From positions 1-64,000 of the forward strand of contig NZ_JACJKA010000001.1 in assembly GCF_016900355.1 (NCBI RefSeq): 64,000 nt of DNA. The letters run 5' to 3'. Origin of the DNA: Bacteroides mediterraneensis (GTDB lineage: Bacteria > Bacteroidota > Bacteroidia > Bacteroidales > Bacteroidaceae). The first letter of the stretch is position 1, and the number at the start of each line of letters is the position of its first letter. Made by a program: the position numbers and the translations under genes. Below, piece after piece: positions 59,936 to 64,000 of the stretch. The notes beneath the pieces are model-generated. The model was not told the origin of the DNA. It saw nothing but the letters and a program-made list of their open reading frames with translations, and did no database searches.

Positions 59936-61105
59936 TCAAAGCGTGTCGTAAGCCGCCTTCAACTGCTGCAAGGCCTTTTCCACGGTAACCCGCGGACATC
60001 CCACGTTCATGCGCATAAAACCGGCTCCTTCCTTACCAAACATCTCTCCATCGTTCAAGGCCAGTCCGGCTTTGTCCACAAAGAAAGCGTTCAGTGCCTC
60101 GTGCGAAAGTCCCAGTTCCCGACAATCCAACCAAATCAGGTAAGAAGCCTGCGGACGCATCACCTTCATCTTAGGCATGTGAGTCTCTATATAGTCTGCC
60201 ACATAATCAATATTCCCCTGAATATAGGCCAGACACTGTGCCAACCATTCCTCTCCTTCTGTATAAGCAGCTGTCACGGCAGGCCAGGCAAACACATGAC
60301 CGGCATTCAATTCGCCGGCATCCAGATACGTTTCAAAGCGTTCCCGGAGTACCTCATTATAAATAAAGGTATGCGAAGCAGCTACTCCCGGCATATTGAA
60401 GGTCTTACTGGGCGCCATAAAGGTAACAGAGTTATTGCGTGCCTTTTCTGAAACCATGGCAAACGGCGTATGCTGGAAAGGAGGCAAGGTCAAATCAGCA
60501 TGAATCTCATCGGAGAATACAATCACATTGTCATCGGCACAAATTTCTGCCAGTTCCTGCAATTCTTCCTTCTTCCATACTACCCCACCCGGATTATGAG
60601 GATTACAGAGAATCAACACCCGTATACCTTTGATGGAACGGCGAATCAAATCCAAGTCCATGCGATAGTGTCCGTCCACCTCTTTCAGCGGACATTCCAC
60701 CAGCCGACGATTGTTGCGCGTTACCAGCCAGGCAAACGGATGATACACCGGCGGCATAATCATAATTTTATCGCCCGGTTCCGTAAAACAATTGATGGCC
60801 ATCCCCAGTCCGGGCACAATGCCGGGTACAAAATTAATCTCCTCTTTCTTCACCGTCATACCATAGCGCTTCTTCACCCAGTCGATAATGGACTGGAAAT
60901 AACTGTCCGGACGGAAAGTATATCCCAGCACCGGATGTTCGCAACGCTTACGGATAGCGTCCAATATAAACGGAGGAGTCGCAAAATCCATGTCAGCTAC
61001 CCACATGGGAATCAAATCTGAACGTCCCCATACATTCACCATACCGTCTACTTTTTCGCAGCAAGTGCCCCGACGGTCTATCACTTCATCAAAATTATAG
61101 TTCAT
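59936..61105 (-). CDS. PatB/MalY-type PLP aminotransferase
   Basis: A 389-aa PLP enzyme of the cystathionine beta-lyase (PatB/MalY) subfamily of aminotransferases. It has WVADMDFATPPFI near the N terminus, CNPHNPGG, and the PLP Lys in APSKTFNMPG. It probably splits C-S bonds of cystathionine or similar. The ATG at 61105 is chosen: the longer frame crosses the promoter box at 61153. Confidence 0.92.
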   Translation of the reverse strand: MNYNFDEVIDRRGTCCEKVDGMVNVWGRSDLIPMWVADMDFATPPFILDAIRKRCEHPVLGYTFRPDSYFQSIIDWVKKRYGMTVKKEEINFVPGIVPGLGMAINCFTEPGDKIMIMPPVYHPFAWLVTRNNRRLVECPLKEVDGHYRMDLDLIRRSIKGIRVLILCNPHNPGGVVWKKEELQELAEICADDNVIVFSDEIHADLTLPPFQHTPFAMVSEKARNNSVTFMAPSKTFNMPGVAASHTFIYNEVLRERFETYLDAGELNAGHVFAWPAVTAAYTEGEEWLAQCLAYIQGNIDYVADYIETHMPKMKVMRPQASYLIWLDCRELGLSHEALNAFFVDKAGLALNDGEMFGKEGAGFMRMNVGCPRVTVEKALQQLKAAYDTL

Positions 61106-61152
61106 GTCTTTTATCTGTTTGGCTGTTTTATAAATGAAATATCTCTTTACAA

Positions 61153-61160
61153 CAAAGGTA
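61153..61160 (-). promoter_or_regulatory. -7 box of the PatB/MalY gene
   Basis: TACCTTTG on the minus strand, 48 bp before the ATG. Confidence 0.55.
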
Positions 61161-61230
61161 AGAAAATACATTCACATCCGGCATTATGAACGTATTTTTT
61201 AAAAATGAGAAGAAAAATTTTGATGTAATA

Positions 61231-61260
61231 TTTGTTTTTTAAAGAAAAGTATTACTTTTG
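61231..61260 (+). promoter_or_regulatory. Promoter of the aromatic amino-acid operon
   Basis: TTTG at 61231-61234, an 18-bp spacer, TACTTTTG at 61253-61260. Transcription would start near 61267 and give a leader of about 190 nt before pheA. Confidence 0.7.
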
Positions 61261-61290
61261 CAGCAGAAATAACAACAAAATAACAAGAAC

Positions 61291-61380
61291 ATGAGAACAT
61301 TTGCATCTTACTTCTTCTTTTACTTTTATTTCTTTTACTTTAGCAATGAAGTGAAGCGGGAGTTTGCATGCATACGGTAA
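61291..61380 (+). CDS. Phe/Tyr attenuator leader peptide (pheL-like)
   Basis: A 29-codon frame from ATG 61291 to TAA 61380. Residues 7-17 are all aromatic (seven Phe, four Tyr), and two more Phe codons occur at 4 and 25. It lies between the operon promoter and a terminator, with pheA directly after. It is an attenuation leader peptide: ribosomes stall on the aromatic codons when Phe- or Tyr-tRNA is scarce. Too short for normal gene finders. Confidence 0.9.
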   Translation: MRTFASYFFFYFYFFYFSNEVKREFACIR

Positions 61381-61441
61381 AAAGAAAATTAATTGAAATG
61401 ATAATACAAAGTCCCGCTTCTATGGAGCGGGACTTTTTTTA
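61353..61441 (+). promoter_or_regulatory. Attenuator: antiterminator and terminator
   Basis: Terminator arms AAGTCCCGCT (61409-61418) and AGCGGGACTT (61426-61435) with a T8 tail. GAAGCGGGA at 61353-61361, inside leader codons 21-24, is exactly complementary to TCCCGCTTC at 61412-61420, so pairing there would destroy the terminator. A stall in the aromatic run leaves 61353-61361 free and lets pheA be transcribed. Confidence 0.85.
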
Positions 61442-61459: not shown

Positions 61460-62302
61460 ATGAAGAAGATAGCCATACAAGGAGTTCCGGGCTCGTACCA
61501 TGACATTGCAGCCCACAAATTTTTCAAGGACGAAGAAATCGAACTGATTTGCTGCAACACGTTCGAAGAAGTGTTCGACAACCTTCGGAAAGACAGCAGC
61601 ATTATCGGAATGATTGCCATTGAAAATACGATTGCCGGAAGCCTCCTTCACAATTACGAATTGCTCAGAGACAGCGGGGCAACGATTATCGGAGAACATA
61701 AGCTGCGCATCAGCCACAGCATCATGTGTCTGCCCGGAGAAGACTGGAGCACACTGACCGAAGTCAACTCCCATCCGGTGGCACTGGCACAATGCCGGGA
61801 TTTCCTGCAACATCACCCACAACTGAAAGTGGTAGAAACAGAAGACACCGCAGGCAGCGCCCGCGACATCAAGGAAAAGGGACTGAAAGGACATGCCGCC
61901 ATCTGCTCCAAATACGCCGCCGAACTTTACGGCATGAAAATCCTGCAGGAAGGCATCGAAACCAACAAGCACAATTTCACCCGTTTCTTAGTAATATGTG
62001 ACCCCTGGATGGCCGATGAACTGAAAGACCGTTCAAAAATCAACAAAGCCAACATCGTCTTTTCACTGCCCCATAGCGAAGGGAGTCTCTCACAAGTTTT
62101 GTCCATCTTCTCATTCTATCACATCAACCTGACCAAAATACAGTCGTTGCCCATCATCGGACGCGAATGGGAATACCTGTTCTACGTGGATGTCTTGTTC
62201 AACGACTACCTGAGATACAAACAATCAATCGACGCAGTCATGCCATTAACCAAAGCACTTAAAATTTTAGGAGAATATGCAGAAGGAGAATCAACCTTAT
62301 AA
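61460..62302 (+). CDS. pheA: Prephenate dehydratase
   Basis: Converts prephenate to phenylpyruvate. The 280-aa protein has the catalytic domain (IAIQGVPGSYHDIAAHKF start; ENTIAGSLLHNYELL; NFTRFLVI) and a C-terminal ACT domain (about 195-275, EGSLSQVLSIFSFYHINLTKI) that binds phenylalanine for feedback control. No chorismate mutase part. First structural gene behind the attenuator; its end overlaps the next gene by 26 bp. Confidence 0.96.
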   Translation: MKKIAIQGVPGSYHDIAAHKFFKDEEIELICCNTFEEVFDNLRKDSSIIGMIAIENTIAGSLLHNYELLRDSGATIIGEHKLRISHSIMCLPGEDWSTLTEVNSHPVALAQCRDFLQHHPQLKVVETEDTAGSARDIKEKGLKGHAAICSKYAAELYGMKILQEGIETNKHNFTRFLVICDPWMADELKDRSKINKANIVFSLPHSEGSLSQVLSIFSFYHINLTKIQSLPIIGREWEYLFYVDVLFNDYLRYKQSIDAVMPLTKALKILGEYAEGESTL

Positions 62303-63467
62303 AATAGCACCGGCCGACCGGTTAAGCAGTGTCAGCGAATATTACTTCAGCCGAAAACTGAAGGAAGTGGCACAAATGAATGCAGAAGGAAAGAACGTCA
62401 TCAGCCTGGGAATCGGAAGTCCCGACATGCCGCCTTCTGAAGAAACCATCAACGTGTTGTGCGAAAATGCCCGCAAGCCGGACGCACACGGCTACCAGCC
62501 TACGGTAGGAATACCGGAACTTCGCAAGGCCATGGCCGACTGGTACAAGAGATGGTATAACGTAGACTTGGACCCGGCTACGGAAATCCAGCCGCTCATC
62601 GGTTCCAAGGAAGGAATCCTGCATGTCACCTTGGCACTGGTCAATCCGGGCGACCAGGTACTGGTTCCGAATCCGGGATACCCTACCTACACTTCCCTGA
62701 ACAAGATCTTAGGCAGTGAAATCGTGAACTACAACCTGCGGGAAGACAATCATTGGCAACCCGACTTCGACGAACTGGAGAAGATGGATTTGAGCCGGGT
62801 GAAAATCATGTGGACCAACTATCCAAATATGCCGACCGGTGCCAATGCCACACTGGAACTCTATCAGAAGTTAGTCGACTTTGCCCGCCGTCACCAACTG
62901 GTGGTGGTGAACGACAACCCTTACAGCTTCATCCTGAACCGCAAGCCTCTCAGCATCTTGAACATTCCGGGAGCCAAGGACTGCTGCATCGAGTTCAACT
63001 CCATGAGCAAAAGCCACAACATGCCGGGCTGGCGCGTGGGAATGCTGGCAACCAATGCCACTTTCGTACAGTGGATTCTGAAGATAAAAAGCAACATCGA
63101 CTCCGGAACCTTCCGTCCCTTGCAGCTGGCGGCCGCTCAAGCCTACCGCAACAGTGCAGAATGGCACGAAGAAGCCAACATCCGTACCTATGCACGCCGC
63201 CGGAAACTGGCCGAAGAAATTATGCATACCTTAGGATGTACCTTCGACCCGGAACAAGTAGGTATGTTCCTGTGGGGCCGTATCCCCGATTCTTATGCCG
63301 ATGTAGAAGACCTGACCGAGAAAATCCTTCACGAAGCCCGTGTTTTCATCACTCCAGGATTCATTTTCGGCAGCAACGGAAAGCGCTACATCCGCATTTC
63401 GCTTTGTGCCAAGGAACCCCAACTGGAAGAAGCGCTGAAACGCATTCAAGCAGTTATGAACAAATAA
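62277..63467 (+). CDS. Class I PLP aminotransferase of the aromatic operon
   Basis: A 396-aa fold-type I aminotransferase with SLGIGSPDMPP, the PLP Lys in SMSKSHNMPGWRVG and the C-terminal RISLC Arg. From its place between pheA and the DAHP synthase gene it probably makes Phe and Tyr from their keto acids, although the sequence also resembles aspartate/LL-diaminopimelate-type enzymes. Overlap of 26 bp with pheA suggests coupling. Confidence 0.88.
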   Translation: MQKENQPYKIAPADRLSSVSEYYFSRKLKEVAQMNAEGKNVISLGIGSPDMPPSEETINVLCENARKPDAHGYQPTVGIPELRKAMADWYKRWYNVDLDPATEIQPLIGSKEGILHVTLALVNPGDQVLVPNPGYPTYTSLNKILGSEIVNYNLREDNHWQPDFDELEKMDLSRVKIMWTNYPNMPTGANATLELYQKLVDFARRHQLVVVNDNPYSFILNRKPLSILNIPGAKDCCIEFNSMSKSHNMPGWRVGMLATNATFVQWILKIKSNIDSGTFRPLQLAAAQAYRNSAEWHEEANIRTYARRRKLAEEIMHTLGCTFDPEQVGMFLWGRIPDSYADVEDLTEKILHEARVFITPGFIFGSNGKRYIRISLCAKEPQLEEALKRIQAVMNK

Positions 63468-63491: not shown

Positions 63492-64000
63492 ATGGAACAA
63501 TTGGATTTATTACCCATCGAACTGGAAGGTGTTTCTCAGGAACGCCCTCTGATCATTGCAGGTCCCTGCAGTGCCGAGACAGAAGAACAAGTCATGACCA
63601 CGGCCAGAGCCTTGGCCGACAAAGGCATCAAGATTTTCCGTGCCGGAATCTGGAAACCCCGTACCAAACCGGGAGGCTTTGAAGGTATCGGTGTGGAAGG
63701 ACTTTCCTGGCTGAAAGAAGTGAAGAAAGAAACCGGTATGTACGTGGCTACCGAAGTCGCTACCGCCAAACATGTGTACGAATGCCTGAAAGCCGACGTA
63801 GACATCGTATGGATTGGTGCTCGTACCACTGCCAACCCGTTCGCCGTACAGGAGATTGCCGATGCCTTGAAAGGCGTAGACATTCCGGTCTATGTAAAGA
63901 ATCCGGTCAATCCGGATCTGGAACTCTGGATTGGTGCCTTGGAACGTATCAACAATGCCGGACTGAAACGTATCGGAGCCATCCATCGCGGATTCTCTTC
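63492..64000 (+). CDS. DAHP synthase (with probable chorismate mutase), cut by window end
   Basis: First step of the shikimate route: erythrose-4-phosphate plus phosphoenolpyruvate to DAHP. The visible 169 residues have AGPCSAET, KIFRAGIWKPRTKPGGFEGIG and ATEVATAKHVYE, the type I-beta (KDO8P-synthase-like) DAHP synthase pattern. In Bacteroidetes the same gene often continues into a C-terminal chorismate mutase domain; that part is beyond the window. 24 bp after the aminotransferase. Confidence 0.92.
   Translation, partial: MEQLDLLPIELEGVSQERPLIIAGPCSAETEEQVMTTARALADKGIKIFRAGIWKPRTKPGGFEGIGVEGLSWLKEVKKETGMYVATEVATAKHVYECLKADVDIVWIGARTTANPFAVQEIADALKGVDIPVYVKNPVNPDLELWIGALERINNAGLKRIGAIHRGFS

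Follow-up and report, generated by a model that had tools for sequence, protein, structure and literature searches.

The leader and the operon behind it

The window, meaning the whole 64,000-nucleotide stretch of Bacteroides mediterraneensis DNA analysed here, ends within an operon for aromatic amino acid synthesis, whose features are collected in Table 1. Pfam confirmed the three genes that the initial annotation had placed there, namely pheA, an aminotransferase gene and a DAHP synthase gene. The expectation that this operon supplies both phenylalanine and tyrosine is also borne out, pheA (for Phe) being joined by tyrA (for Tyr), which lies beyond the window on the contig. The same four-gene order is found in 18 of 20 longer loci (our own and 17 from other genera or species, with ORFs matched by eye). 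At the other two there is no such leader: G040 has pheA by itself, and G104 carries a distant pheA.

Table 1. Features of the leader region and of the operon that follows it. Positions are those of the window unless stated otherwise.
Feature	Position	Strand	Basis
Bacteroidota-type promoter, -33 TTTG and -7 TACTTTTG	61231..61260	+	TAnnTTTG kept before 97/98 family leaders
Leader peptide ORF, 29 codons, MRTFASYFFFYFYFFYFSNEVKREFACIR	61291..61380	+	sequence read, family comparison
Segment 1, 5' arm of predicted protector hairpin, overlapping most of the run	61302..61333	+	single-sequence fold, swap test
Control codons Y F F F Y F Y F F Y F	61309..61341	+	uninterrupted run
3' arm of predicted protector hairpin (segment 2 in the wide sense)	61342..61372	+	single-sequence fold
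Segment 2 core, antiterminator 5' strand, GAAGCGGGA	61353..61361	+	complementarity, covariation
Intrinsic terminator (segments 3:4), 13-pair stem	61408..61436	+	T tract 61434-61440
Segment 3, antiterminator 3' strand and terminator 5' arm, TCCCGCTTC	61412..61420	+	complementarity, covariation
pheA, prephenate dehydratase (regulated, predicted)	61460..62302	+	Pfam
Class I/II aminotransferase (regulated, predicted)	62277..63467	+	Pfam
DAHP synthase and chorismate mutase, cut by window end	63492..64000	+	Pfam
tyrA, prephenate dehydrogenase, beyond the window	L102:3582-4355 on the contig		Pfam

The region upstream of pheA has the anatomy of an amino acid attenuator: a short leader ORF with codons for the products of the operon, and an intrinsic terminator between this leader and the first gene. 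The promoter can be read directly as TTTG-N18-TACTTTTG. The 29-codon frame holds eleven consecutive Phe/Tyr codons (F7 Y4), as had been claimed, and GAAGCGGGA within it is the exact reverse complement of the terminator 5' arm. All the coordinates given in the initial annotation are right. The terminator also stands, with 13 pairs, and the single correction needed is to its T tract, which is T7 and not T8. A divergent class I/II aminotransferase gene (59936-61171, minus strand) shares its intergenic region with the attenuator promoter.

The run is exceptional in the window: of the 732 short ATG ORFs there, none but this one exceeds 5 F/Y in a stretch of 11 residues. Among 60 simulated 64-kb sequences (first-order Markov), no ORF had at least 10 F/Y in 11 residues, the maximum being 7. 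A covariance-model scan of the same genome found no second copy of the attenuator. There was one strong match (E 8.5e-18); next came the opposite strand of the attenuator's own terminator (E 0.106), and then matches at E 5.9 and 7.8. Runs of His codons, also sought in this genome, gave 40 scattered matches.

Conservation and RNA folding

PheA was searched for in 151 genomes of the family and matched in 138, with 122 strong matches and 16 at 31-33% identity. The upstream DNA was read at 101 of the 122 strong loci (our own and 100 of the other 121), and a leader was called where an ORF had at least 6 F/Y in 11 residues. Such a leader lies upstream of pheA at 98 of these 101 loci, and a terminator-like hairpin follows it in all 98, counts that are not independent because the family sequences are related. 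The three loci without a call are L073 (in G040, where pheA stands without the operon), L079, which has no leader, and L077, where run and terminator are visible but there is no intact ORF. In 97 of the 98 the promoter motif TAnnTTTG is found no more than 90 nt ahead of the leader ATG, as against 5 of 98 for a control piece 300 nt further upstream.

Phe and Tyr each appear two or more times in the best 11-residue window of every one of the 98 leaders (mean 5.1 F and 4.2 Y), so that neither these leaders nor our own run are of the Phe-only type found in pheL. Among 59 distinct runs, codon position 2 has an A in 217 cases, compared with 17 for position 1 and 15 for position 3. This codon-phase signature is the one expected if F/Y codons, rather than a plain pyrimidine tract, are being kept.

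Outside the family, the covariance model R1 found 27 of 109 genomes of the order at E at most 0.001 (including our own and one genome of the same family). In a draw of 109 genomes from the phylum it found 8, including our own, and the other seven are all from the same class. A search of the order anchored on PheA gave matches in 48 of 109 genomes, and all 46 loci from other families were taken. There is a leader at 41 of these 46. The loci without a call are G247 and G214 (pheA alone), G232 and G192 (combined operons, G192 having a shorter F/Y leader below the cut-off) and G156 (contig end). Finally, among the matches listed for a named set of 80 PheA loci, which overlaps the other locus sets so that the counts are not additive, a leader is present at 70 and missing from 7, the upstream DNA being cut off at the other 3. 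This set includes Phocaeicola vulgatus ATCC 8482, P. massiliensis, Bacteroides fragilis, Alistipes, Parabacteroides and Muribaculaceae. A search of a plasmid collection was of no use for comparison, giving just two records, OY726023.1 and NZ_OY725947.1, which are entered as Phocaeicola massiliensis and Bacteroides finegoldii plasmids. They carry a similar leader and may be chromosomal pieces.

The pairing of segments 2 and 3 was analysed in an alignment (A1) of 81 of the 98 leaders, near-identical ones having been removed. In this alignment 89.3% of the cells of the 2:3 helix are paired, and sliding the partners by 1-3 columns reduces this to at most 52%. Changes on both sides are seen in 6 of the 9 pairs (shuffle mean 2.6), and the covariation score is 0.135 (shuffle mean 0.089), with none of 500 shuffles as high on any of these measures, the share of paired cells included. 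Of the five covariation measures one, the number of further pair types, does not exceed the shuffles (276/500). Judged by energies, the native pairing is better than that with segments from other genera in 86 of 98 leaders for 1:2, 83 for 2:3 and 91 for 3:4, the difference for 2:3 being reversed in genera g2, g11 and g21. The initial annotation had predicted that the aromatic run and its complementary pair would be kept in relatives, with compensatory changes. Both are kept, and the changes are there. The comparison supports the attenuator interpretation made there, with a conserved and covarying antiterminator that would compete with the terminator.

The segment 2 core lies in one reading frame in 61 of the 98 leaders, in another frame in 10 and after the stop codon in 22, the motif being absent from 5. 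It is therefore conserved as RNA, since it is kept whether it is translated in either frame or not at all.

One element that was missed in the initial annotation is a predicted protector hairpin (1:2), in which the Phe/Tyr codons themselves would pair with the antiterminator strand and which would account for the ribosome-release segment sought there. Single-sequence folds of our own leader and of many relatives give a long hairpin with the codon run as its 5' arm and segment 2 within its 3' arm, and our own folded stretch with this hairpin has an energy of -20.4 kcal/mol. The RNAalifold consensus of the 81 leaders retains just the innermost 5 pairs of 1:2, and was rejected as proof of the long hairpin.

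Folding was also modelled in different ribosome states for 94 of the 98 leaders; the four left out, all of them g11 loci, lack a perfect 6-bp core. With segment 3 just transcribed and no ribosome present, the equilibrium probability of 2:3 has a mean of 0.71 (0.90 in our own leader) and is below 0.5 in 25 of 94. With a stalled ribosome the mean is 0.95, and with the ribosome at the stop codon it is 0.36 (own 0.67). The stalled state exceeds the at-stop state in 94 of 94 leaders and the state without ribosome in 85 of 94. In the 20 leaders whose stop is at segment 2 the at-stop probability of 2:3 is 0.00, and in the 74 with the stop after segment 2 it is 0.45. Because the equilibrium already favours 2:3, the protector would have to form first in order to win, or else is weaker than drawn. 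Equilibrium folding was accordingly rejected as proof of the switch. The segment 2 core starts 8-14 nt past the run (12 nt in 39 of 94, 11 nt in 28 of 94), which in this model is about where a stalled ribosome would end.

Codon content and the proposed mechanism

We consider it highly probable, at roughly 90%, that this is a classical ribosome-mediated transcription attenuator, responding to how much charged Phe-tRNA and how much charged Tyr-tRNA is available. The speed of leader translation would then very probably decide whether the operon is transcribed. A ribosome starting on the leader would encounter the Phe/Tyr run and, should either charged tRNA be scarce, would stall there and cover segment 1, so that a lack of one of the two amino acids would probably suffice. 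This would leave segment 2 free to pair with segment 3, block the terminator 3:4, and allow transcription of pheA, the aminotransferase gene, the DAHP synthase/chorismate mutase gene and tyrA. With both charged tRNAs plentiful, the ribosome would get to the stop codon. In lineages with the stop at segment 2 it would cover segment 2 there, and in the present window segment 2 would re-pair with segment 1 behind it. In either case 3:4 would form and terminate transcription.

Leaders with different genes behind them can also be compared. Six of the 46 order loci (G164, G174, G184, G238, G247 and G214) have pheA without downstream homologues of the aminotransferase, DAHP synthase or tyrA, G214 having only a 25% aminotransferase match. 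A combined locus is one with at least one of these three behind pheA. In the four pheA-alone loci with a leader, the Phe/Tyr counts in the densest 11-residue window are 7/0, 9/0, 6/0 and 5/1. A Tyr-free run is thus found in three of four pheA-alone leaders, the fourth having a single Tyr, and in none of the 37 combined ones (Fisher p about 4e-4, for one genome per family label and not corrected for the tree). The Tyr share in the 37 combined leaders has a mean of 0.43 and a range of 0.12 to 0.62. At loci with two leaders the one nearest pheA was used, and the G238 peptide was cut to an internal Met rather than to its GTG start. Separate operons without pheA in G164, G174 and G247 have leaders with F4 Y6, F4 Y5 and F3 Y4.

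The pattern is replicated within two of these family groups. In the G184 group a Phe run without Tyr is found at 9 of 13 PheA loci (one of them below the cut-off), and the other 4 have no leader. In the G174 group there is a Tyr-free Phe leader at 2 of 8 PheA loci, and 6 have no leader. In the G164 group the other 16 PheA loci all have tyrA or an aminotransferase gene nearby, and all have mixed leaders. This natural experiment supports the view that the attenuator would sense the products of its own operon.

Three details of these groups are worth adding. In six of the eight G174-group genomes (L310-L315) pheA stands alone without a leader and adjoins the upstream gene, the attenuator apparently having been lost. 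In L333-L341 of the G184 group the Phe-only leader and pheA are followed by an unusual neighbour, an ORF resembling dihydroxy-acid dehydratase (ilvD) as judged by eye. Five PheA matches in the same group (L336-L340) contain one in-frame stop within the alignment, perhaps because the query begins upstream of the true start codon.

The best of the alternatives is that the leader senses Phe only, as enterobacterial pheL does, and that the Tyr codons persist to fit the base pairing of the protector. In the predicted 1:2 hairpin the run does form the 5' arm, with UAC codons in it, and synonymous codon choice is mildly biased towards pairing. Shuffling the segment 1 codons synonymously weakens 1:2 on average (mean z -1.29), z being below 0 in 90 of 98 leaders and p at most 0.05 in 31 of 98, although our own leader taken alone is not significant (z -1.35, p 0.095). 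However, pairing to a protector does not account for the near-absence of Tyr from the pheA-alone leaders and its presence in 37 of 37 combined ones, nor for the three partner operons lacking pheA in which Tyr exceeds Phe. We therefore regard sensing of Phe only as improbable.

It is more improbable still that the leader encodes a small protein with a function of its own, the hairpin being no more than a terminator or processing signal. Family-wide conservation of the peptide, in which endings such as SNKVKREFVC recur, would fit this. In other genera, however, the C-terminal stretch is translated in a different frame (NCEAGSCV) or is untranslated while the RNA stays, and neither the covariation of segments 2 and 3 nor the way in which the run tracks operon content fits a protein-level role. 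A riboswitch or protein-bound antiterminator with an incidental ORF is very unlikely too. The conserved alternative 2:3 and 3:4 structures speak for it, as they would for any attenuator, but no Rfam family reaches its threshold (Phe_leader, RF01859, scores 31.2 bits against a gathering cut-off of 55), and the codon-phase signature and composition shifts are accounted for by translation.

Tandem leaders and known systems

The series form was analysed at eleven loci with two F/Y leaders before pheA (L170, L171, L176, L200, L211, L212, L206, L219, L220, L289 and L292), and seven of the 46 order loci belong to this set. Each leader has its own terminator in ten of the eleven, the contig ending in the eleventh, and the first terminator of L206 is weak. 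Eight of the 11 have a -7 box before the first leader and none has one between the leaders, which leaves the second gate without an evident promoter. Judged by eye, the antiterminators of the two gates differ in sequence, as in L170, L171 and L176, where the first gate has CGGGA and the second AGGTGG. We lean slightly towards a wider reading, in which this is an ancient attenuator family found throughout the class Bacteroidia, with Phe and Tyr codons swapped as the genes change, and in which several lineages have two gates with different antiterminators in series behind one promoter, multiplying the response to a shortage of Phe or Tyr.

Ribosome-mediated attenuation is already well known as a class of mechanism. 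In enterobacteria the control codons of pheL are for Phe only, and pheA is not known to share an operon with tyrA. The pheL-pheA system resembles the present one in having a leader peptide rich in control codons and alternative protector, antiterminator and terminator structures upstream of pheA. It differs in that the Bacteroidales run mixes Phe and Tyr and heads an operon for both. Leaders for several amino acids are also known from E. coli, that of thr having Thr and Ile codons and that of ilvGMEDA having Ile, Val and Leu codons. Both operons are named as attenuated in PMC1183508. As in those operons, one attenuator would here answer to several products, but the amino acids and the phylum are different, and in the Bacteroidales the codon make-up changes with operon content across lineages.

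Within the phylum, the accessible portions of two papers describe clues for leader-peptide attenuation at amino acid operons of Flavobacterium psychrophilum (PMC9723704), where the same class of mechanism is suspected, and long 5' UTRs of B. thetaiotaomicron with short ORFs reminiscent of leader peptides (PMC7366714). The word phenylalanine is absent from the main text of both, and those portions give no structure or covariation for this element. Salmonella mgtCBR is reported to have tandem attenuators (PMC3641672), a single leader region of that operon containing two short leader ORFs. In contrast to that arrangement, the successive Bacteroidales leaders share the same kind of control codon and each has its own terminator.

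NCBIfam gave no match for the leader peptide. No description of this element was found in the literature searched, subscription papers lying mostly outside its coverage. A comparative survey of amino acid attenuators by Lopatovskaya, Seliverstov and Lyubetsky in 2010 may include predictions for Bacteroidetes. The combined Phe and Tyr readout, the way it is rewritten as operon content changes, and the arrangement in series all seem to be new, although that survey may predict a part of this.

For an abundant gut order, the element would provide a defined switch for the synthesis of Phe and Tyr, one that neither Rfam nor NCBIfam contains at threshold. With codons swapped between operons of pheA alone and combined ones, nature has set up a test of whether attenuators sense exactly the products of their operon. 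Because attenuation needs coupling between ribosome and RNA polymerase, the element could also be used to probe this coupling in Bacteroidota, and with the series form one could study how two attenuators act together.
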